Positions 8,356-60,550 of a DNA stretch of 64,000 nt are shown piece after piece. The stretch spans positions 1 through 64,000 of the forward strand of contig JAQFWX010000030.1 in the NCBI GenBank assembly GCA_027605045.1. Direction: 5' to 3'. Origin of the DNA: Phallus indusiatus. Taxonomy: Eukaryota > Basidiomycota > Agaricomycetes > Phallales > Phallaceae. Made by a program: the position numbers and the translations under genes. The notes beneath the pieces are model-generated. The model did not search any database. It was not told the origin of the DNA and saw nothing but the letters and a program-made list of their open reading frames with translations. Numbering within the stretch: the first letter of the stretch is position 1; every line of letters starts with the position of its first letter.

Positions 8356-8825
8356 ATGCAATTGACTAGCTCTGCGTTTTTTGCCTTTGTTATCTCAGCT
8401 GTTGTGGTCTCAGCTGTCCCCTTTCCTGGTGTGTTCTCAATTTCATGATGTCTTTTCGTCAATTTTGCTGAATGACTTGTTTTCAGTGCCCAACGGTAGA
8501 TATTTTAAAGTTTGCCTCTTAACCTTAGATCTAATATAAGTTTCCAATTTATTCAATTCTATGATGGCGATAGAAAATGGTACGTGAAACCTATTATGTG
8601 CATGAATGTGTGATTGCTGACGATGATATTTGATGTTCAGCTTTGAGTTCTTCCCCGGCAGTTACAACCAGTGCTCCAACTTCAACTGCTGACGCAATTT
8701 CTCTACCTCCATTGTCAAGCTTGTTGCCCAGTTTGCCCGTCTCTTTGCCGGCACTCCCAAGTGTGTTGCCTAGCTTGCCAGTTTCCTTGCCTAGTCTTGG
8801 ATTAAAAGAAGAGAATTCGGTATGA
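8356..8825 (+). CDS. Small secreted Leu/Pro/Ser-rich repeat protein
   Basis: Exon 1 (8356-8428) encodes a clear signal peptide, MQLTSSAFFAFVISAVVVSA followed by VPFP. Two microexons seem to follow (8487-8495, 9 nt; 8574-8579, 6 nt). A longer exon starting at 8641 encodes a Ser/Thr-rich stretch and repeats of the type LPSLPVSLPALPSV, ending LGLKEENSV before TGA. The product is a secreted low-complexity peptide of roughly 85 residues with no cysteines; I recognise no family. Downstream tandem copies of the 3' part (to about 9510) could add exons, but joining unit 1 to unit 2 does not keep the frame. I therefore end the model at the first stop, with an alternative in which splicing at 8820 continues into the repeats. 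Confidence 0.5.
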
Positions 8826-40804: not shown

Positions 40805-43800
40805 TCAGAATTCATTCTTCTCCACATTTCTTCCATGCAATAGTTTCCATATGTGGGTCATGGAGTATCCCTGCCCCTTGCATCTCCAAGAAAACAAATC
40901 TCGCAAGAAAAGAACTGGATCACCGGTAAATTTGCAATCAGTCATACCCAGGTGGCGTCGCAGATCCAGGTCTCTAACAAAGCCAGTAACCTCGATGTTT
41001 CCCTTCTTTCTTTCCTCCAAATCCGACGGAACATCGCCAAAGTGTATTCCGAGTATTCGACAAACTAATTTGTACGCGTCTTGATTTTTGAAAAATAGTT
41101 GCCCCGAAAATATATTCAACTCTTGAATCATCATTGGCGTCCAGTAAATGCCAGCGGTCACGCCGTTTCGTTCCGATTTAGAGAGTAAGAATCTGTCCAG
41201 GCTCTCCGTTGACTGGCCTTGACGAGAGATGCGAGCTGTATAGCAGTGCAATCGCATGAAATTGGAATTCCGAACTTTTGGAAGTAGCTCGTTGGCTTCG
41301 TATGGACTTATGACGCAAAGGAAATTCGGGGCTCGAGTTGAAGTCATGATCCACTGAACAGGTCGTAAGAAATCGTCCATCACTCCTCGTTCGGGTCGTG
41401 GTGACAGCTGGATAGTCACTATGAAATCTTTCGTACACCGAATTTCAGAGGATTGGAAAAACGAGACCGTCACTTCTTTCAAATTTGAAACGCTTGACGT
41501 ATGTCCAAGAGCGTCAATTAAGGTCTTGAATCCGCGGATATTTGGTTGCCCCGTGTTGAGGAAGTCTCTCAAGACAGGATCCACAGCATGTTTCGCAGCT
41601 TCGACTTTCAGAGCTCGCTCTACCTCCCGTGTTTCCTCTTTTTCCTGAGACAACTCCCGTTCTTGTTCTTCGGCTATATTGTTGTTGGCTGAGAGGCTTA
41701 CTCCGTATTCCTGTGACCGCTGCACAATTTTACAGAAATAGGGATCATCCAATTTATCGACTGCAGAATCCCGATCAAAGCCATACAGCTCTTCAAGAGT
41801 TTTGGCTTCTTTCTCCTTGATAGCTGCTGATAATTCTTCGACAGAGCCGAACGCTGAGAACTTGCGCCATGCTTCATGGCGTCCGCTATAATTCAAGCCC
41901 TGGATACCCCAATGCTGGATATCGTATTTGAGGTGAAGGAACGTCTCGTGCAAAGACCATAGAAGTACATGTCTCGAGTCTAGTTGTCCTGGATCAACGT
42001 CGGGACTCAACGCGTTGATTTTCCGAATAATTTCATCAGATGCGAAAAACATGATGGAATGGCCTCGACCCAACTGGCGCATTCGCATACATGCTATTAA
42101 ATGATGAGGATCGCTTGACAAACGAAAACAGCCAAAGTAGTAACGTACCCTGCATCAATTTGTCCTTGACTAACTTGGGACCCAACGTAACTACAGCGAC
42201 GGAATTCATAGGAAATTTGAAATCGGTTCCCCGCGTGCGAGCTTCATCTAGATAGACAAGAGTTTTTTCCAGCTGCGTTTTGTAAGGAGAGTTCTGTAGA
42301 GTTTCAATCCTGCCCGTCCTCGAAATTACTTTGAAGACTTCGTCCTTAGGATCACAATAAATGGCTGCTTCAACGTTCTTCCTCTTCTCCAGATCAAGCC
42401 ACTGTCTTGCAACTTCCGAATTACCCAGCTCCAAAACTTGGGCGCCGGCATCAATCAAAATTTGAGACTTGTGCTGCACAACGAGTTGAAGTAAGGTAGT
42501 AGCGCTTGGAACATTTCCGGTCCCGATTACCCGTCGGTTTTCAGGACGAAGGATGTACCCCAGAACCAAAGCATTGGTATGCTTTTGATCCGGAGAATCA
42601 TGTTGTTTGATGGACAAAGGCAGGAGATATCGGTGATCGTTTGTTCCGCTGAAACCAGTGGTTACGCGTGGCTTCTCCATAGCCAAGTCCCACGAATTCG
42701 TGACCAACTTATGGGGAAACTCTTTTGCTTCACGAGGAAAAACCTCATGACTGAGGTAGAAATCGATAACTGATTTTATGTAGCGGAGCTTTGGGAATAT
42801 AATAGTTTGCTGTTGTTTCGCATCCTCCAGGTTCAAACCTCTCAAAGCTCGAAGATGACCCGGGATTTCGTCTACTTGCTCTTTGATCCAGTCTTGATAG
42901 TATAGATCGGGATTATCCAGCTGCAGCAGAATTTCGAAAACTCTTTTCAATTCTTCGTCTCGCAAGCCTCCGTAGTAATAGGAAAGACATGTGAGAGCGA
43001 TGATCACCTCGGGATGCCCGAACTCGGCGCGTAAGGAAGGGTAATCCTTGGCTCGGTAGGGCACTGCAACTAGACAGCGACTGAGATCCAAGCCGTAATC
43101 AACCCGCCATCTCTTCTCTTTAAGAACATTGACTAATATTCCCAGCGCCAGTAGTCCACGGAGTAGCAGTAGGTGGGGGAAATTATGCGGAAAGGCACAC
43201 CTCACTTTATCGTATTGGGTTTTGTCGACAGCAGGGTTTGTGATGAAATCGACAGCGTCTTCGCGATGCTGTAAATCGTAGTTGCGAAGTAGTAACCATG
43301 GAAGACGTTCTTTGTAAATAATTTCGTATGCCAGTTGCGTTACCAGGCGTTGGGCGCATTCGTTAGTCAAGAGCCGTATACGCCGGAATCGACCCACTTC
43401 ACTTGTATCGGAAACTTCCAATCCACTTTCGTATTCAGCTTGTTGATTGACCAAAATATCATGAGTTAGAGAGAAAATCCGTTGGGTGATCTCCCAGCGA
43501 TGAGGCCGTCCATCGAGTGGCAGCGGGGTCCCAATGGTGTAAATGAGTTGGTACCGTGTACTCAGCAATTCATCACTTTCGTCCAGAATGTCTCGTGAAT
43601 TTTGATCTAACCAGTGCTGAGTATGTAAGAGAGTCTCGTATTTTTTGAAGCTGCATAGCCTCTCCAGACCAATGAGCCGAAAGGATAATACATGCTCTGG
43701 CTGGCAGAGAAGAATACCTGCATTTTCCGCGCAGTTTCGGAATAGACTGAAGATTCTCTCTGCCTTGGTCGCGTCCAACTGTACGTTACGATGAAATGGA

Positions 43801-46800
43801 AGGAAATACAGGCGTCTATTGGCTAACCCGGATACGCGTTGTCTGAGCAAAGCAAACATTTGTGCAGATAATGGCTTCAGAACCATAACGCGAATCAATT
43901 GTTCTCCGTTGGCTAAAGTCATTGACACCATCGGTATTATGACCTGCTGAATGGTCAATATTGTGCTGAAGGAAACCGTTCATAAAATACTGACTGAGGA
44001 TTTTCCTTCGCCCATATTCAACTGCATAACGGTATTGGTGCCTCCAGCCGGGGACATCATTTGTTTGGCGATGTTCACCTGAACTTGTCGAATGGAGATA
44101 TCGGCTTCAAGTTCAAGTAGCAGCCAATCAAGGTATTCCAAACTTTCCCATTCTTGATTTTTATGCGATTCGCCAGCGATATTTCGTGAATTATCCCGAA
44201 ACTGCTCCTGTCGATCCTTATTCTGGCGTCGTCGTAAACCTTCTCCAAACTCCGATAGGATCGTTAACCAATTATGTTCTACAGTTTTCCGAGATGGGTA
44301 AGTGAGCTGTCTCAGCAGAGACGTTGGATGTATGACCGGCCATTGACCTGCATAAGATAGTAACTCCGCTGAGGGGGACTGTTCCGGACCTAGAATGCGT
44401 TGGATCACATCTAAAGAGGCTTCGCGACGTGATTTATTGGCCTCCAACGCATCAATACATTTAACCAGGTCATCGCTATACACTTGCAACAGGCGCTCTG
44501 GTGCCGCCAGACTGCGTAACGTTTCAACCAAATCGCGCGGTGTCGAAATGTCTGATATTTGATTGGTTTTCTCCAAGTGCTTGTCCAGATAGATGGGCTC
44601 TCGATCCTTCATGAGCGATAGTAGAGTGGGCAGACCAAAACGCGGAAGCTTGGAAACATTCTGCGCGGACCGTTCAGGAAGCCACAAATTGTCGCTTCCA
44701 ACCGGAGCTGGCAACGTAATCTGTCGGAATAGCTCATCCATCTTTGAGCAATAGTCGTAAAGAAGTTTGTTTCGTGCCCAAGTCCTAAACTTCTCTTCGA
44801 TTTTTTTCCTGGAGCTCGAGTGATCTATCAAATTGGAATAGGCGATCTCCAGTGGAGGAAAAGACGGGAAAGAAAGTGTGCTGCGTGAGATTACAAAATC
44901 GACGAACTGTCTTTTCTGCCTCGTGCAGGTATCGTGATAGTCTGCGCGGCACCGATCCGAATAATCCCTCTCGCTCTCAGCTGACTGGCGCATCAGTCGA
45001 CCAGCCTGGAATTCGCAAAATGTCACCAATGCTAGTAGTTGGTCTTCGCGAATCCCATAACCTTCTGAGTTCGGCGTAAAATAATCAGAATGTGGTAATT
45101 CTGCTAACTGAGAAATTCGACGAAACTCCGGTCCATGTGTTTCTGCATGCAAGGCTATGGTCAGGAGAAGGTATAAAATATCCATGTTTTGTCCAGAACG
45201 ATACGCCATGACACCAAATGTGAAAATGAGATCATAATTGTGTCCTTGATCCCGACAGCATTGATGGAACAGCATAAACCAGACGTCATTGGGCGATATA
45301 AACTCCGTGAATAGGACATCGACTTCAGAAAAGCTCAAAGCCTTCGCGCTAGCATTGAATGGTCCAAGTTCATAAAATATCGACCAAAGTTTTGGTAAAG
45401 TCTTTAAAGAAGGTGCTCGGCGATTAATGCTAGTAACCATCTGGATCAATCGTTTTTGGTTGGGTTCGAGTTCTGGACTTCTTAATGGCACTTCGTATAT
45501 CTCGTCCTTTTCTGATGGATATTGGTACGTCTTTTATTTTCAAAATTAAATTATAAGAGCTAACCTTGAATATAGAACTCGGGAGTTGTAATTCGCGAAG
45601 TGCGCGCTTGGGATCTTCGTCGTAAACATAAACTGTCCGAAGAGCCAAGTTTTGAAGGCTCATGATCGTCCAAAAACATTTTGAGATCTTTATTGTGCTC
45701 CATGATAGCATCTACGAGTGAAACGAAAATGTCGCTTTGAGCTAAAATTGGAAGATCCGTCCGCCAGATTGTTGTTTCCATCGACTTCAGATGTTTAGGG
45801 TAATAGGCACGTTTAGGCACGATGCCAAGCAACTTCTCCTTCAGAATATTCCACTCGACATCTTTCAAAGGCTCCATGAACGCGAAGGATGTATTTGATT
45901 TTAACATCCATACCGCTTGCTCCGTTCCCCCTCGACCAGTCAAAGGATCCGGCATATGATAAGACGTCATAGCGTGGAGGTAGACCAAATAATAAAAGCT
46001 TGCCAAAGTCTCCGTCGAAGTTAAACGTTGTATAACGTGATCCAGCTCATAAACGAATAAACGAATATGATTATCATTGACAGTTGGACGAATGGAACAA
46101 CGTGTTTGTCCTTTATCTCGTTGACAGTTTACATCCCCATACGGGATGAGCACCTTTTTGTTTACTGAATACCGTGCGTCCTCCAAGATCAACTGATTTT
46201 GTAGACCAATAAGCGTGCCGACGGATTGAGTGCCTGCTACTATCATATTTGGCATCTCTTTGCATTCGAGTTGTTGGGAAGAGTTTAGGAAAAATGTCAG
46301 CAGGTATCGAGGTAGAGTAATGAGGATGCGGGAAGTTGAACAGCGGGGGCGACAGGCACCATTGAATTCCCATAGAACACATAATTCCACTGAGGAGCAT
46401 TCGAGTCGATTAAAAATGGAGAATAGATCTTGAACCAATTTTGAACGAGGGCTCAATATGACCTGTCTCTTCGAAGAATCTCGAGTGTGATATGACGGAG
46501 ACGTAAGCTTGGGTGATGGGCTTTGGAGCAACGGATCTCCTGAAAACTTCATCTCCCACAGCGGGTTGTTTTCTGCTCCCCAGTCTGCGGATAACTTTTC
46601 GAAGAAAACGAGGGAATTCTCAGTCACGTCACGATACAATATTATGGTATCATGAAGGACTTTGTTAGGAAAGTCTCCGTGCAACTTGTTATTATCGACG
46701 AATTCGGAGATCGCCCCGTTGTTTTTGCTCTCGCGGACACGAATTATCACCTCACCCCCGTTTTCTTCAAAATGCACCTAAAATAAGGTTAAAGTATTTG

Positions 46801-49800
46801 TTTAAACACATGATACGGACACGTACTTCGAAAGTGCCGTCCACATTATGAGCCAATTGGTACGACATACCCTTCAGTGTTGACGGGACAATCTCTACCA
46901 CAGGCTACACCCGTATTAGTAAAAGTCATCCAGACGCTTAAGATTAACTTACTCGATTGGGGAAAATCCACTTATAAAGAGGACTTCGTAGGATGGATTT
47001 TGGTAGTCCGCCGAGCTTTTTGCCATCGATAAGGAGCTGACCATCAAGAACATTATAGTACATCCATCTTGACTGGTCGAAGTTCTCATTGGCGACCGCA
47101 GTTCGGCAGCAAAGCCAACAGCCCTGTAGAATACGCCATGAATCAGGTTTGGACAAGAAGCTCTCCCAGTAGACCCTGATAGCGTTTTCGAATCCCGAGA
47201 AGTCCGGTTCGGAGTCTTTTGTCTGAATCCTTTCAAGTTTGGACATGAGATATACGAATACCTCGGCCGCTTGGACAAGATCTTTCTGGATGATATATTG
47301 AAGTGTAGAAGGAAGATTGCTAAACGATCCAGGTAAAAAGTCTTGGATGGCGATGGACGATATTACAAATATCTTAACCGCATCGGGGTCTCCCGTAAAC
47401 AAAGCGTCAAGCTCTTCTTGTTCTAGGCCATACGTCGATCGACAGCAGATGGCAATTTGGAGAAGGCGAAAAAGTAAATCTTGTTTGTTCGTAACTGAAT
47501 TTTCTCGCAAGTAAGAATTCCGTACGTCACCCAACCAAGAGGCACATGTTTTCCGGAGACGGCACAACAGTTTTAAAGTCTTTTGTCGTACGTCCGCATC
47601 GTTGTTAAGAGAATGAATACGGCATGTCAACATGGCCAAAGACATGGCTGTCCAGCCTTCTTGCCAATTTTCGCGAATGGAATCAAAATGTCTCGAAAGA
47701 ACTTCTACAGCCTCCATCGCAAAAGACTTGTCGGTAAGGTCTATGTGAAAATCTCGATATTCGTTGCTTCCTTGACGTTCAACTTGCCATGCTGCTTGAC
47801 GTAATAAAATAAACCACGCGGGATCCTTAAAAGTCCCAACACCTTTTAGGAACTCTATTAGGATATTGCGCCACTGTAGTCGTCCACCCGCACGAAGATG
47901 ACCGAAGCTTGCCCATTCATGATACGTAAGCGAGCGAGGGCAATCTGACTGCTTGGCAATCACCTCATTGGATGTGTGTGTGGTTGAACGGACAAGCCAA
48001 GAGAGGTTGGAATAGACACCTGAAGGTAGAGTAGGTGTGCAGACACTACGGAGAGAAATCTTATGGAAAGATGTGATCCATATTTGACGCTTGGGGTCAT
48101 ACAATTTATATCGCAGAGGATGCCGTTTTATAACGTCGGCTTCAAGATATGCTTGTCCTACTTTATTTTCCGAGTAATGTGTCTTATACCATGGCTTGGC
48201 ATCATAAGCGGCGATGGTAATTTTATTAGGACCAGCACTTGAATATTGGGTCAGGGGGGTATAGTTGTTGAGTATAACAGTCGGTCCGTTCTCGTCAGCT
48301 TGTGCGTCGCTTTGTATCCTCGAAATGTCGTAAGTAACGGTTCGCCATACCGTGAACCATTTGGGCGGGGATAGTTCGAATACAACAACGCGCTCAAGTA
48401 TGCGATCCTCCGGTAGGGGCCATTCGTATACTTCAATAGACAGATATGAAGCTCTGTCTTTAAGTGTGCATTTCTCACACCATCCCGGATGCCTGACGAA
48501 GCCACGCCAATCTGTGTCATAATCATGAGACAGACTGTTTGATTGGGAAATAAGGTTGTGAAATTCCTGTCGAAGCGTCTTCCATTTCTGCACTTTGAGG
48601 TCCTTTTCAGCACTCGCGCTTTCTCGGATTTTGTCACGTAAGTTTTGCAGATTTTCATCCATCAGGTAGTACTGAGAGGCAAAACACGTCTCCTCGCTAT
48701 TGAGATTGAATATGGAAGCACTATGTCGAACCCGAGCATGCCGGTTTTGAACGTACTGTTCTACCCGATGTAACCGTTTCATTTGAGACAGTTGGGGGAG
48801 TAGGAGAGGCTCGAAGGATTCAATCTCTATCTCGGGAGAATAGTTTTGAAGAAGGGGGGATATTTGAATAACGAGTTTGTCCAAAGCTACCCATAACTCC
48901 ATCACTACAAGGTATAAACGCGAAAAAAGCTCTGGATTTGTGACTGAATTCGTTAACTCGATGAATGTTTCAAGATAGCCGTTGAGGGTTTCGATTCGTT
49001 TTCCAGGTTCGATATCGATATCTTCCTGCCACTGTTGCATTTTATCGATTACCCAACGCTCAAACTCGATGAATGCAAGCCAAAATTCGAAGCTTTCGAG
49101 CGATCCCTTGAGAGGAGTTAAGTCAGGTAGAGCGTTTCCATCGTTACGAGTTAGATTGGGACGAAGGTCTTTCTCGAAATATGCCGGATTAAATTTGGCG
49201 TCAACGTTCAACGTCGACTGTCGATGATACAGTTTTGACAAGTAATCGCCGCAATAAGGAAAGGTAAATCGGCAGGCATTCTCAATATCGTCTACAGATG
49301 GTGGTGAAAATTGCAAAGGCGACCTTTCTTTGTCCAAAATTTCATTCCATCTTTCCTGGAGAATACACTGGCACCGCTTGACCTGCTTGTAAATAACGTC
49401 GAATACGGGTCCGTTGGTAACGGTATCGCGAAGCTTCCACATTCGGCCCGCAATTTTGACCTTCATGACATGCAGCAAGTCATGATTGATCCCAAACGAG
49501 CAAGCCTCGCGCAAGACAGTTGTGAGTAGATACGTTATAAATGATTTATAGCCGAATTGTGAGTTGATGTCAATGCCAGATACTTCGAGAGATGTTTGTA
49601 AAGCGACGCGAAGGATTAACCATTCGGGCATCCGACGCCACGGAAGTTCCGCGTTTGACCATAAGACATGGTCATTTATTCGTTTCGTAACGTAAACAGT
49701 GGCGTTTTGGGTGTTGTCCAGGTCAGAAGTCGTTCCCGTTGCGAGGATACCACCAAGCATTTGAGATACATAGTGAATATCTGCGACCTCTCGAGATTCG

Positions 49801-50425
49801 TTTACTTCACTTCCCGCCTTCCAAGTTTTGGCCAATGCATCGTCAAATTCAGTGCGGTCGAGCCACGCGAGAACCCGGCAGAACGGCGTAATGCATTGCT
49901 CGTTCTTTGGGAAGGATAGACGTGGCATGGATGGAAACGTCATGATAAGCTTCCCAATGGTGCTTGTAACCTTCGCTGCAGGTGGTGAGGCTTGGAATAT
50001 TTCGACCAATATGGTATTCCCATCATCGGAACATCTTAAGATGACGCCTGCGTTTTGAGCGACAATGTGGAGACATAAAACATCTGTCAATAGAAATCTC
50101 CGCTAAGCATATGGAATTTTTAAGAATTGTATGTCTTTGTCGCACCTTTGGGCTGCATGGCATCTATGGCTTCTTTTAAAGCGTGTTCGTCCAAAGCCGG
50201 TTCTGTGCGTGTGTCCGCCATGTGTTGAACCATTCGATCCAACGCCTTCCAGACGGAAAGAATATTGACGTCCGTGATGTGGTTTCTAAAACTTTGCATG
50301 CTTTTTAGAACAAGTCGAGTGATTTCGGTATATCTGCTCCGAGTCCAGTCATTTTCTTGAGGTAATTGCGGAGGAAGAAAAAGGTGATGAATCAAATAGT
50401 CTAAGCATTGAGAGTCGGTTGCCAT
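40805..50425 (-). CDS. Giant DUF6606/DUF3638/DUF3645 protein with P-loop (3,100 aa)
   Basis: Seven exons (50146-50425, 46953-50083, 46827-46904, 45565-46777, 43995-45511, 42149-43943, 40805-42093) close exactly in frame to 3,100 residues. The N-terminus (YLIHHLFLPPQLPQE) matches DUF6606. The DUF3638 part ends in a Walker A-like MGEGKSSV near residue 2070, continuing VIIPMVSMTLANGEQLIRVMVLKPLSAQMF. The short DUF3645 element (RAEFGHPEVIIALTCLSYYYGGL) lies near residue 2380. Known: such proteins are widespread in fungi and some other eukaryotes and are often auto-labelled ubiquitinyl hydrolase. The SecA/helicase-like P-loop suggests an ATP-driven machine, but no activity is established. The intron at 45512-45564 must use the CAG acceptor for the frame to hold. 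No lesion is seen, so the gene appears functional. Confidence 0.9.
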
Positions 50426-51810
50426 GATATACTAGAAATGTGATGCTCTGTTAAGAAATTCGACTTTAGACGATGTAAATTGACGTACTAAGCAGGTTGG
50501 ATTCAGAGCAAATGGAAGTTCAACTGATGGGTCAGGTTTAAGGGCAAGAATATATGGGCTGTGCACTGCGCGCAGAATGTTTCTATTTTTAAAGTTCATG
50601 TTCACTCATAGACTGTGAATTTTAAAAAGAAAGAGGGAAACGAAGTCATTTCGTCAGCACGTGTTTGTTTCATAGGCAGCACTCGTTCAGAGTTTTGGAG
50701 CCGCGTATCGCCACGCCTCGTTCTTGGGTAATCCATCTCCGCCCTCAGAATTTGTGAGGATCGAAATATGGTAGAAGAAAATAGAACATTGATGCGTGGG
50801 CCGCTGGCGGGATCCTTCAACTTGGCGGCCACTGGTAGTTATGATAGAACTCAGAGCAGCTGGTCACATATGGGCGGAGCGCCCATAGCCTGGCCATTGA
50901 TTAATTGATGCATTGATGGTTGTTAGTAAACAGTAAACTCGGTTCGTTGACAAATGCTCTCTTTTACAGTACTACATACATATATGGATACCTCGTACAA
51001 CTACAGTTTCAAAATTTCGATTTATATACCCAAACACCTAAATGGCAGATAAACGACCACGTGAGTAATTCATTTTAAATATTATTACAATGAAAAACAT
51101 GAGCGGAGCAACTACCTCAGATGAGCTTTCACAAACGATTCAGACCGACTCGGTCTTAGATCTAATTACACCCTGGAAACCTGGCTGCTTAATATTTAAT
51201 TATAAATTCATCTCCACTGATTGAAGTGAAACAGATAAGTTGTTGGGATATTATAGGTACCAATATCGTTGTCGGAATAAAACCAACTACCGTAGATATT
51301 GACTTGATGATCTTTGGGTGTGCCAGCAGCCATATATACATAGTAATTATTATCGAATATCTCTAATTAGTGATATGTATTCTCCATTCACGATGCTTCA
51401 GTAGCTTCAGTACTCAGCTTCAGTCGTCTAATGTACAAGGTGCCTAGCAAATACATTACGCCTGAGGTGTTTGTAAAATGTAAAAAAGTAGAATGGATAG
51501 AATCTTAGTCTCGGGGAGAAAACGACGAACGGCAACGGCCGAGTTGCCGCCGTAACCGTCACTCTGGGCGGCAATGCGTTGAATGTTGCGAGCACAAACC
51601 ATGACCTCCTGATCCTCTTGTCAATTTGGTGGATAACAAAAAGCACGAAATCTAAACAAGTAAAGAAGGCTTTGTACAGAATGTCGGTTCCCCAACTCGT
51701 TTATGTTTTGTCCGATTTCCAAAATGGGTTGGACAACAGACGACTTGTGCACATCAACACTCAAATAAATCTGGTTTGTTTATCCTATCTTTGTAAGGTA
51801 TCATTTCAAC
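50426..51810. other. Intergenic, no supported gene
   Basis: Upstream region of the giant gene. No other coding structure. Confidence 0.5.
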
Positions 51811-54357: not shown

Positions 54358-56948
54358 ATGTTAACCGTTAATCCCAGGTTGAATTCCCTTCCTGGTTGGG
54401 AGCTGGGTATGTTTTCTCGGGATTGATCATTGCACTTATTAGGGTCTTCTTTTCGCGTCCTCTCCTGATGCAATCCTTTCCTAGATTCGTATGGATATGG
54501 AGGAAATCATGCATTCCCGACTGATCAGATCGATACGCAAAATCCGTTCATTTCTCCCATCCTTCCCCCGTCTACGAAGACCTTTGCTTGTACACCTCCA
54601 GCCAACCCGTTTTCGCCATCTTTCGATGAAACTACAGTTGGAGTTGATATAACTTCCTCTGCTCAGCCCGTCCAGGTGTCTCCCAATGCATCTGCGCCTT
54701 CACCTGCGACAACCTCAACCCCAATGACATCGGCCGGATCTCCATCTCAATCTCCCCCTCCTCCTTCTCCAAAACCCAAGCCCAAAAGCGCGCCCAAAAA
54801 CCACGACCGTAAACGTTCGCCAAACCATATAAAGAGACCTTCAAATGCCTTTCTGATTTACCGTACCCACTTGGTGAAAAGTGAAGAGGGTGAAAAAATC
54901 AAAAAGGTCGAAAAAAATCAACAGATTCTTTCCAAATTTGTTGGTGAGAAATGGAGACGTCTTTCGGAAGAGGACAAAGCGAAATGGGTAGCTAAAGCCA
55001 AGGAGGCTCAGGAACAGCACGCTTTGAAACACCCGAACTACTCTTACCAACCTGCGAAACGCGAACAGATCAAGAGGAGACGTCAACGAAAAACGGCGGA
55101 GCAAAAAGAGGAGGACAAGGTTAACTTGTTGAACCGGTTTTCACCTGAGACGATGAAACAACCTATCGTCGAATCTACCGCTCCCAGAAAGCGGAAATCT
55201 CGCGCGAAGAAGAAGACGGTGGAGCCACAGCAGCAGGAACAACAAGAACAAGAACCGGCGGTTTTGTTAACTTCTTCCACGTCTTTGAAAGCACCAGTTC
55301 AAGGGGATTCTCAGCCAGTAATCAGCAAGCCTATTACTGCTAACGACATCCTAGCATCAGCTGCACCTGTGGTAAGCGAGTCCACTGCTGCGAACGAGCT
55401 GCAAGCAAGATTCAGCCGCGACAAAGCAGCTGGAATGCCAACTACGGTAAGAACATGATACTATATACACTCCGAAAAACTTGTGAACTCAATCCATTTT
55501 TTTCTTCTTCTCTGGAATAGACCGACATGTACAACGCTCAATACACGTATACGTCGTTCTTTGCTGCTCCTCAACAATCCCAATTTCTTCCGTCTTCGCA
55601 AGTTCAAGTCGAGTATCATGGGTCTTCAATCGTTCCGAACGATTTATTCAAAGGAGACGTTTTTCAAAGTCTCTTGCTTCCTCCTGGTGCTGCTGGGTCT
55701 TCAGCACAAAACTGGGGCGCTGAAGGATCTGCAGTGTCCGCCGGGTCTGGAAGTGATTTCGTCAACATCTGTCATATGTCGAGCAAACCCATAGACTTTC
55801 CGATTCAGATGTATTCTCAGCCGGAAAACCAGCATTCCGATATGCGTCTTGCAGAACCTAAATTCGTCTCCTCTGCTGATCTTTCTCAGATCAATCTCAA
55901 CCTCGACGGGTTCGATTTCTCGTTTTTTTACGGTTCTGAAGGTGCTACTGCTGGTGGTACTCAAGCTGTAACGCCTGCCGATATCATTCAGTTTGCTAGT
56001 AACGAAGGTCTTTCCGGGATTTACGGTTTCACCAACACCAACGGCGGCGAGAATTTGGATGCTGGTGTGCAGCCCGTGGGTTCGGTTATGAGTCAAAGTC
56101 AGGAAGCTGGCACTGGCACTTTGGTTCATGGCAACTCTAATGTCGTCGGCGCCCACATGAATGCCAATCATGCTAATCTCGGCATCACGGTTGGCTCTGA
56201 AGCAGAGAAGAAGAAGCATGATGACGCGACTTCGGGTGTCTCATCTCAGTACTTCGGAACCGTTAATCCCTCTGAAATCAGCATCAGTCAGAGCGGTCTG
56301 GGTATATACCCATATCAACAACTGGACGGTAACGCGACTGTGCAAGCGGAATCCGGCGTCATTATCAAGGAGCCTAGGTTTTTCGATTTCAGTAAAGGTA
56401 ATTTGGAGGTGGCTAGTACCACGCACGTCGATCCGGCAACTTTGACTCAGGAGAATGGATACGGTTCCAAAGGCATCGTTTACACGAACCAGCCAACTTA
56501 TTATCCGGCGGCGGTTGTCGTTCAGCCCGAAAACCAGCATCCAGACATGTATACCAATTTTATGGTTGACGATTACGGAGCTTTGAATGACAATGATATC
56601 AACAACGTTCTCGTCAGCCACACGAACGTACATCCCTCCGCGACTGCGGGACACCCGATTATCGTTCAGGCGGAAGACCACCACCACCAAGCTATCATTA
56701 TGAATCATCTCGCAGATCCACAAATACAGTCTTATTCTGCACCGCCGAGTCATTCTTATCTTGAGATGAGTGATGGGTATGGAATGATGCATTGCAGCGA
56801 TCCAACTTTGGCTGGCGTTTTTGTGCCAGACAAACCACCACCATATTTGTACCTGAGGGCACTGGACGTTCCTACGAACGCGATTGCAAACGGAAACGGA
56901 TACAAACACGGACATGGACACGGACACGGACATGGATACGGTTATTGA
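54358..56948 (+). CDS. HMG-box transcription factor (MATA-HMG type), 812 aa
   Basis: Exons 54358-54406, 54485-55446 and 55521-56948 close in frame to 812 residues. An HMG box lies near residues 132-205: KRPSNAFLIYRTHLV, then NQQILSKFVGEKWRRLSEEDKAKW and HPNYSYQP. It is flanked by a Pro/Lys-rich linker and a strongly basic stretch (KREQIKRRRQRK) that would serve as nuclear signal. A Gln/Glu run and a low-complexity C-terminal region follow, ending in alternating Gly-His repeats (GHGHGHGHGYGY). Known: MATA-HMG box proteins regulate mating, fruiting and other development in basidiomycetes. The box binds DNA minor grooves. No pheromone receptor or homeodomain gene is nearby, so it is probably not the mating locus itself. 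Confidence 0.88.
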
Positions 56949-59372: not shown

Positions 59373-59381
59373 TATATAAAA
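59373..59381 (+). promoter_or_regulatory. TATA box of the single-core peptide gene
   Basis: TATATAAAA lies 85-93 bases before the start codon at 59466, a normal distance for a fungal core promoter. Confidence 0.5.
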
Positions 59382-59465: not shown

Positions 59466-59734
59466 ATGCGTTTTAACTATCTTCAAATCCTCATTGTGTT
59501 CCTCACTCTGGGCGTTACCTATAATGTAGCCCTCACTACTAGTAGCACTGTTGATGATCCTATCGATTGTAAGCAATATTTGCGCGAATAACTAGTGAAT
59601 TATACTCAACGTTCATGATATGTAGCGGCCATTCCTGTGAGTTTTGAAACAGACGTTGAGCCAATGCGTTTACTAATTCAAACATAAAGAGCCCCGATGG
59701 CTGTGGAAACCTGGGAGGTCGGTCATGCAATTAG
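59466..59734 (+). CDS. Small secreted peptide precursor, one CGN-GGRSC core
   Basis: Exons 59466-59568, 59626-59636 (an 11-nt microexon) and 59690-59734 join in frame to 52 residues. The first ~22 residues are a signal peptide (MRFNYLQILIVFLTLGVTYN). A Ser/Thr/Asp-rich spacer follows, then SPDGCGNLGGRSCN directly before the stop. The two cysteines, nine residues from first to last inclusive, could form a disulfide ring. The last exon is 45 nt, exactly as in the oppositely oriented gene at 60149-60550, which carries two copies of the related core EGCGNRGGRSCN. I recognise no described family. No Lys-Arg Kex2 site precedes the core. The last acceptor is AAG. An unspliced reading would stop soon after the first exon. 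Confidence 0.7.
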
Positions 59735-60148: not shown

Positions 60149-60550
60149 TCAGTTGCAGGATCTACCGCCACGGTTACCACATCCCTCGGGAGTCTACAAA
60201 AAAAGGGTCAACATCTGTATAATTACACTAACATGCACCATACGGGTTCTGGACGAAAATTCTAGGCAAGCTGTAACTTTTATTGGAAGATGAAGATTAC
60301 GTACCAACAAGCTCGACGACGGGGGAAACATTGCAAGATCTACCTCCCCTGTTTCCACAGCCCTCGGTCGACTAGAGGGGATTAATATCCAGGATAATCA
60401 ATACGCCATAAACTCACATCAGCTAAACAATTGAGATGATTTAGATATATTTCATGTGAAAAGCAGTATCTAATACTTACTACTTTGGGGAACCGGTGAT
60501 GCAGCCACGAAGGCGGCAACGAAGAGAACGATTAAAGTTTGGAAGCGCAT
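60149..60550 (-). CDS. Small secreted peptide precursor, two CGNRGGRSC cores
   Basis: Exons 60481-60550, 60418-60422 (5 nt), 60305-60371, 60244-60248 (5 nt) and 60149-60193 close in frame to 63 residues. The signal peptide is MRFQTLIVLFVAAFVAASPV. Core 1 is STEGCGNRGGRSCN, followed by a VSPVVELV spacer. Core 2 is TPEGCGNRGGRSCN, ending at the stop. In the 12 shared codons EGCGNRGGRSCN the two copies differ at seven bases, all synonymous. That fixes the reading frame and indicates purifying selection on the peptide. Each core exon is preceded by a 5-nt microexon, so the repeat unit is microexon-intron-core exon. An alternative last splice (donor gtaatc after GGTAC) would give a different C-terminus, LPRDVVTVAVDPATEQAGF. 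The synonymous pattern argues against it. Confidence 0.7.

Follow-up and report, generated by a model that had tools for sequence, protein, structure and literature searches.

An apparently undescribed gene family of predicted secreted peptides with a conserved eleven-residue core in the stinkhorn Phallus indusiatus

The minus strand of the window (the whole 64,000-nt stretch of DNA analysed here, C130:1-64000) holds a short gene whose predicted product carries the same cysteine-paired core twice. The questions raised by this locus are whether the repeat belongs to a genuine gene, whether that gene has relatives, which part of it is held constant and what the constant part could do. The initial annotation had placed two cores in one minus-strand gene, A, and that observation is right and was understated. 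The parts of the gene are the following:

60149..60550 (60550-60149), minus strand: gene A from start to stop codon, a predicted 63-aa precursor with two cores (splice parsing)
60481..60550, minus strand: exon 1, with the signal-like N-terminus MRFQTLIVLFVAAFVAASPVPQS (splice parsing; signal peptide judged by eye)
60418..60422, minus strand: 5-nt microexon CTGAT, phase 1 to phase 0, predicted by the model in gene A
60305..60371, minus strand: core exon 1, with the core GCGNRGGRSCN at 60362-60330 and the linker VSPVVELV (pattern search and splice parsing)
60244..60248, minus strand: 5-nt microexon AACCC, from the model
60149..60193, minus strand: core exon 2, TPEGCGNRGGRSCN and stop, with the core at 60184-60152 (pattern search and splice parsing)

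With both cores and the ...SCN end required, the parser returned one protein only, MRFQTLIVLFVAAFVAASPVPQSTDSTEGCGNRGGRSCNVSPVVELVEPTPEGCGNRGGRSCN, encoded by five exons, two of which are 5 nt long; the allele on C140 gives an identical protein. The weakest donor of the gene is the GTATGG of the AACCC microexon. A degenerate-core search of the window, allowing up to three mismatches, found three matches, against a mean of 0.03 expected from 100 shuffles, none of which reached three. Two of these are the cores of gene A, which differ, as had been reported, at seven bases over 12 codons, all synonymous on codon comparison. Pattern search thus confirms the cores, and the signal peptide claimed with them is a prediction from reading the sequence by eye.

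The third match lies in a neighbouring gene, A2, that converges on gene A across 414 bases:

59373..59379, plus strand: TATATAA box, 93 bases ahead of the ATG of A2
59466..59734, plus strand: gene A2, a predicted 52-aa precursor, the only protein returned by the parser
59466-59568, 59626-59636 (11 nt) and 59690-59734, plus strand: the exons of A2 (splice parsing)
59699-59731, plus strand: GCGN..SCN of the A2 core

The predicted product of these three exons, the middle one of 11 nt, is MRFNYLQILIVFLTLGVTYNVALTTSSTVDDPIDSAIPSPDGCGNLGGRSCN, with a single C-terminal core, GCGNLGGRSCN, that the initial annotation's own pattern [ED]GCGN[RL]GGRSCN already matches. By-eye reading of the A2 allele on C140 (L030 from 7377) found nine linker bases missing, in frame, and the core unchanged.

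Protein and pattern searches of the genome (67,222,576 bases in 206 contigs), followed up from the best-scoring candidates, gathered at least six genes. The four beyond A and A2 lie 10 kb away (E) or on contig C162 (B, C and D):

C130:70589-70059, minus strand: gene E, two cores (genome search)
C162:1707747-1708344, plus strand: gene B, two cores (genome search)
C162:1744481-1743909, minus strand: gene D, two cores (genome search)
C162:1749614-1748707, minus strand: gene C, three cores (genome search)

With two cores in A and one in A2, this makes 12 cores in six genes, one to three in each; the initial annotation had named many precursors with 1-n cores as support. An 18-base core pattern, blind to cores with GGG codons (E1, B2 and C2), matched the genome 14 times and its reversed control not once; 13 of the 14 matches are family cores, and the remaining one, at C140:1722915, lies outside the family. 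Gene A is a member of a real gene family and not a product of chance: the window has three cores where 0.03 are expected, and the genome 14 matches to none. Chance as the source of the core repeats is ruled out by these shuffled-window and reversed-pattern controls. All six genes end in ...SCN and a stop codon. TATA boxes stand 93-112 bases upstream of the ATG in five of them (A2, B, C, D and E), and the same pattern finds none within 300 bases upstream of gene A.

A, A2 and E each recur on contig C140, from which we infer that both nuclei were assembled. Between its two alleles, gene A has 1 difference in 192 coding bases and 9 in 210 intron bases; for gene E the counts are 2 in 243 and 3 in 288, and both pairs encode identical proteins. 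No second haplotype of the C162 genes was present among the best 40 of 53 and the best 40 of 945 candidates. What C8 (117,861 bases) has in common with the sequence between the C162 genes is limited to fragments of about 1 kb and 0.5 kb: two blocks of C162:1721038-1722884, between genes B and D, are alike in C8:64961-67478 (100% and 98%), and a 397-base dispersed repeat splits them on C162.

What has been kept constant can be read from the substitutions. Over the 66 pairs formed by the 12 cores, codon 5 left out, synonymous differences average 4.79 in 7.06 sites (pS 0.68), and there are 0 nonsynonymous differences in 22.9 sites (pN 0.00 at 10 of the 11 codons). Codon 5, which encodes R, L or P, is the sole variable position. 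As a control, 10 pairs of signal exons from A-E, compared over their opening 12 codons, gave pN values of 0.15-0.48. The young pair C/D shows the same within two genes: pS and pN are 0.15 and 0.14 in the signal exon, 0.19 and 0.12 in the 12-codon linker exon, but 0.29 and 0.00 in the cores. Because the flanking exons drift and silent sites are near saturation, the identity of the cores is not due to a low mutation rate or to gene conversion; conversion would even out silent sites too, and it is ruled out as the cause. Selection on the peptide product, initially proposed from two copies, now has behind it 12 cores in which 10 of 11 codons never change their amino acid while silent sites are near saturation. 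Judged by these comparisons, the unit under selection is the 11-residue core, without the precursor around it.

Most core exons follow a modelled 5-nt microexon. Our chosen models, on which this count rests, include 15 five-nt exons (two in A, three in B, five in C, three in D and two in E), two of them supported by the open reading frame P0001 described below, in addition to the one 11-nt exon of A2. Donor and acceptor thresholds were relaxed for A2, B and E. At the third microexon of gene B, the 5-nt version used scores 9.6 and a 17-nt alternative leads with 9.7; the acceptor of the gene E core exon is ambiguous by six bases (EPTQSD or EPSD). Every modelled microexon is entered in phase 1 and left in phase 0, and the core or linker exons that follow are mostly 3n+1 nt long, the 39-nt linker exon of E being an exception, so that a microexon and its next exon form a frame-neutral, duplicable cassette. 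We propose that a 5-nt microexon plus a core exon of 3n+1 nt would be the unit by which these genes duplicate their cores. When computed on the models, skipping of the first microexon removes every core in each of A, B, C, D and E.

A full-length profile run against about 5.8 billion proteins yielded 4316 candidates, of which a single one, P0001 (146 aa, E 1.2e-14), matched at E 1 or below; its source is given as 'lgn', which we take to be the Logan assemblies. It corresponds to gene B with introns 1-3 removed, both of the intervening 5-nt exons kept and intron 4 retained, and agrees at 146 of 146 residues with TGA read as Trp; four alternative gene B splicings all diverge from it, after 104, 128, 104 and 127 residues. 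Since the genome has gene B only unspliced, the P0001 contig must come from RNA. Its reading frame extends about 240 bases upstream of the gene B ATG, beyond the TATA box, and it may be a read-through message. The microexon splicing and frame that had been predicted are therefore upheld for two 5-nt exons of paralogue B, the only gene with transcript support, and those of gene A are predicted by the model. A 2024 report describes functional microexons as new for filamentous fungi (PMC11121469), and the present family is a clear example of frame-neutral cassettes repeated together with their 5-nt exons.

Outside this genome, a profile of the mature region gave one match up to E 10 among 1214 candidates, P0002, at a non-significant E of 3.7. 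This 77-aa protein (BU17DRAFT_81395) belongs to Hysterangium stoloniferum, which is in the same subclass as the stinkhorn, Phallomycetidae, but in another order. It ends in ...EDGCGGRGGRSCN, with the core GCGGRGGRSCN and the SCN terminus of the six stinkhorn genes; its N-terminus is hydrophobic, its SPIP recalls the SPVP/SPLP of A and B, and KK stands six residues before the GCG core. By average composition, about 2e-4 such C-termini would be expected in the whole database, an order-of-magnitude figure calculated post hoc. On these grounds we accept P0002 as a probable relative, so the homologues that the initial annotation had called for are probably represented by a C-terminal core in another order of Phallomycetidae, at a score that is not significant. 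No Clathrus, Sphaerobolus or Ramaria protein matched, though their proteins are in the protein database; either missed microexon gene models or true absence would explain this. Transcripts that skip the core exons or read them in another frame, and a lack of any homologue, had been named as grounds for abandoning the proposal, and neither result appeared.

For the family members, no Pfam or NCBIfam model scored above cut-off, and the PDB profile search returned no chain up to E 10. Viral contigs gave 33 pattern matches and no relatives, and scans of the window for tRNA and Rfam families found none. The strings GCGNRGGRSC, GCGGRGGRSC and NRGGRSCN occur in none of 5.39 million open-licence papers, a set without subscription papers and supplements. 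We conclude that the family is real, constrained and apparently undescribed. The proposal of a new secreted peptide family holds, with six genes, 12 cores, a spliced frame for gene B and a similar core in Hysterangium; secretion is predicted from the N-termini.

The systems nearest in design are the KEX2-processed repeat proteins (KEPs) and the alpha-type pheromone precursors of ascomycetes (PMC6339444, PMC7329392, PMC9769878). KEPs are characterised there by a signal peptide and short identical repeats, and are widespread in Basidiomycota (PMC6339444, PMC7329392). The stinkhorn precursors are KEP-like in their near-identical repeats, with two or three cores in five of the six genes and one in A2; the N-terminus looks signal-like by eye in A, B, C, D and E and less typical in A2. 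They differ in having one to three copies, microexon cassettes and no KEX2 site: none of the six precursors has a dibasic pair beyond its cores, none contains lysine, and the linkers have no K and one R. KEP membership is ruled out by the missing dibasic sites. A putative KEP peptide of Trichosporon oleaginosus, QSWGGCGGRGTPCW (PMC6339444), resembles the Hysterangium core GCGGRGGRSCN in a short glycine-rich stretch, sharing GCGGRG and two cysteines, but has six residues between the cysteines instead of seven, ends in W and carries KEX2 and STE13 signatures.

Alpha-type pheromone precursors share with the family repeats of a short peptide with one cysteine pair and a glycine turn, for example RFCHLPGQGCSK (PMC6339444), and, on the N-termini predicted here, a signal peptide. 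The family differs from them in lacking KEX2/STE13 sites and a W-C frame; X-P/X-A pairs do stand before some cores, with no endoprotease site in front. In alpha-type precursors, as in this family, the last copy lies at or near the C-terminus. We rejected membership in this class for the missing KEX2/STE13 sites and kept it as an analogy. An STE2 (PF02116) profile search of the genome found no match, and the control genomes gave none either. STE3-type receptors are present, with 24 exon matches on C61, C120 and C153; a spliced STE3 from this genome is closest to that of Clathrus columnatus (Phallales), at 70% identity over 99%, among the best 120 of 208 matches at E up to 1e-20. Basidiomycete a-type (lipopeptide) pheromones are alike in being small fungal precursors, and the genome has several STE3 receptors. 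The present family, however, has a signal-like N-terminus and lies on C130, C140 and C162, not on the STE3 contigs. A CaaX box is absent from all six precursors, which end in ...RSCN, and a lipopeptide mating pheromone is rejected on that account.

We hypothesize, at about an even chance, that these genes encode a new family of small secreted proteins, shared by stinkhorns and their relatives, in which the active part is the 11-residue core GCGN[R/L/P]GGRSCN, acting as an endogenous ligand. The core would probably be closed by a Cys2-Cys10 disulfide, most likely with Gly and Arg at the turn of the loop, and would probably have a free C-terminal Asn. One to three such cores are carried on linkers rich in Thr, Ala, Val, Pro and Ser (139 of 182 linker residues), a composition resembling that of O-glycosylated stalks. 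Since lysine and dibasic pairs outside the core are missing, KEX2 would not be the releasing enzyme, perhaps except in Hysterangium with its KK. Because all six genes stop right after the last Asn of the core, a free Asn end is suggested to matter, and if so, inner copies must be cut after Asn too; in all 13 copies, counting that of Hysterangium, the core is preceded by D, E, N or Q. Release by a route other than KEX2 is the course we slightly favour, and intact display on a mucin-like chain a less probable one that we take seriously. The core is predicted to be a hormone- or pheromone-like signal or another binder of a conserved target. A ligand frozen across several paralogues, with a single position free to vary, is more in keeping with an endogenous signal than with a weapon. 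A narrower version, in which the disulfide-looped GCG[N/G]xGGRSCN ligand, with its microexon cassettes and precursors free of KEX2 sites, would represent a hitherto unseen class of endogenous peptide hormone in mushroom-forming fungi, we advance only tentatively; its kinship with alpha-type pheromones would be one of design and perhaps of ancestry. For such a putative hormone, specificity would lie in residue 5 (R, L or P; R with N4G in Hysterangium), and inclusion of the first microexon could, on the gene models, act as an on/off switch.

Several observations challenge the endogenous ligand. An invariant core fits an enzyme inhibitor or a structural role as well, the classical hormone release route is missing without a dibasic site outside the cores, and the database gave only P0001 at E below 1, plus the non-significant P0002. 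Intact multivalent display, in which the mature mucin-like chain would bind cell wall, glycans or another surface through its loops, draws on the same linkers, rich in T/A/V/P/S and free of lysine and dibasic pairs, on the lack of a processing site and on a copy number of only one to three. It is made rather unlikely, though still worth weighing, by the single C-terminal core of A2, by linker lengths that vary freely and by the stop exactly after the core Asn in all genes, which display does not require. That the sequences are chance repeats or pseudogenes, a view to which the weak last donor of gene A and transcript support confined to its paralogue B lend something, we consider extremely improbable given 14 pattern matches (13 of them family cores) to none in the control, gene A alleles that differ mainly in their introns and encode one protein, and the spliced frame of gene B.

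An antimicrobial or defence peptide, basic, closed by a disulfide and repeated so that more of it is made, would suit a cationic core with two cysteines. Gene A also matches Big defensin (PF14862) over residues 5-36 with E 7.4e-4, sharing a hydrophobic N-terminus and a CGNRG-like stretch. That match (20 bits against a gathering cut-off of 25) falls mostly on the signal exon and occurs in one of the six members, and the family has two cysteines per core; Big defensin was rejected as its identity. Defence peptides, moreover, usually diversify, whereas this core is frozen at 10 of 11 codons, and its net charge is only about +2, which leaves this reading improbable. We think even less of the chance that the core is cut out and modified as a ribosomal peptide natural product (RiPP), for instance by head-to-tail closure joining Gly1 to Asn11. 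A predicted signal peptide, a repeated core running from Gly to Asn, the D/E/N/Q before every one of the 13 cores and a weak NCBIfam lanthipeptide match (one of six members, E 0.068) are consistent with it. However, no DUF3328/UstYa, other RiPP enzyme or peptidase was found among 20 neighbouring ORFs scanned with Pfam, a set that leaves out L025-L027, L029, L031 and L032 and some exons, and after the last core there is no residue that a transpeptidase could split off. Peptides cyclised by asparaginyl endopeptidase (cyclotide or SFTI type) presumably use a legumain-type ligase. The genome has a single peptidase C13 gene, on two contigs, of the legumain type or the GPI-anchor enzyme, and cyclisation by an Asn-endopeptidase of a core that starts with Gly and ends with Asn is not supported.

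Few secreted peptide signals are known in fungi outside mating, and the candidates in published surveys come from predicted proteins with KEX2 sites. Where such sites are a requirement, a survey would miss the stinkhorn precursors of this family, and ordinary gene prediction is likely to miss the 5-base exons that carry much of its coding sequence. If the core is a hormone, such surveys overlook a class of fungal signals. It is small enough to be synthesised and tested directly on an edible, cultivated mushroom.

Among the 20 ORFs scanned, taken from the surroundings of the genes and from other parts of the window, HMG box, DUF6606, DUF3638, F-box-like, Methyltransf_25 and alpha-kinase models matched above the Pfam cut-off. 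Beside the peptide genes, open frames with an HMG box (54469-56948, plus strand; PF00505, E 7.6e-11) may belong to an Agaricomycete HMG-type transcription factor, and a very large gene has DUF6606 and DUF3638 in long open frames (40805-50431, minus strand). Fragments of an alpha-kinase family gene lie between genes A and E (L033 2232-3462; C130 at about 66.2-67.5 kb). On C162, a repeat of about 280 bases just 3′ of gene B (L024 at about 8520-8810) recurs at some 20 genomic sites with 92-97% likeness and resembles a short mobile element. Between D and C (C162:1742500-1750000, L028) lies a repeat roughly 2.3 kb long with methyltransferase-like open frames; six further copies elsewhere are 85-87% alike.
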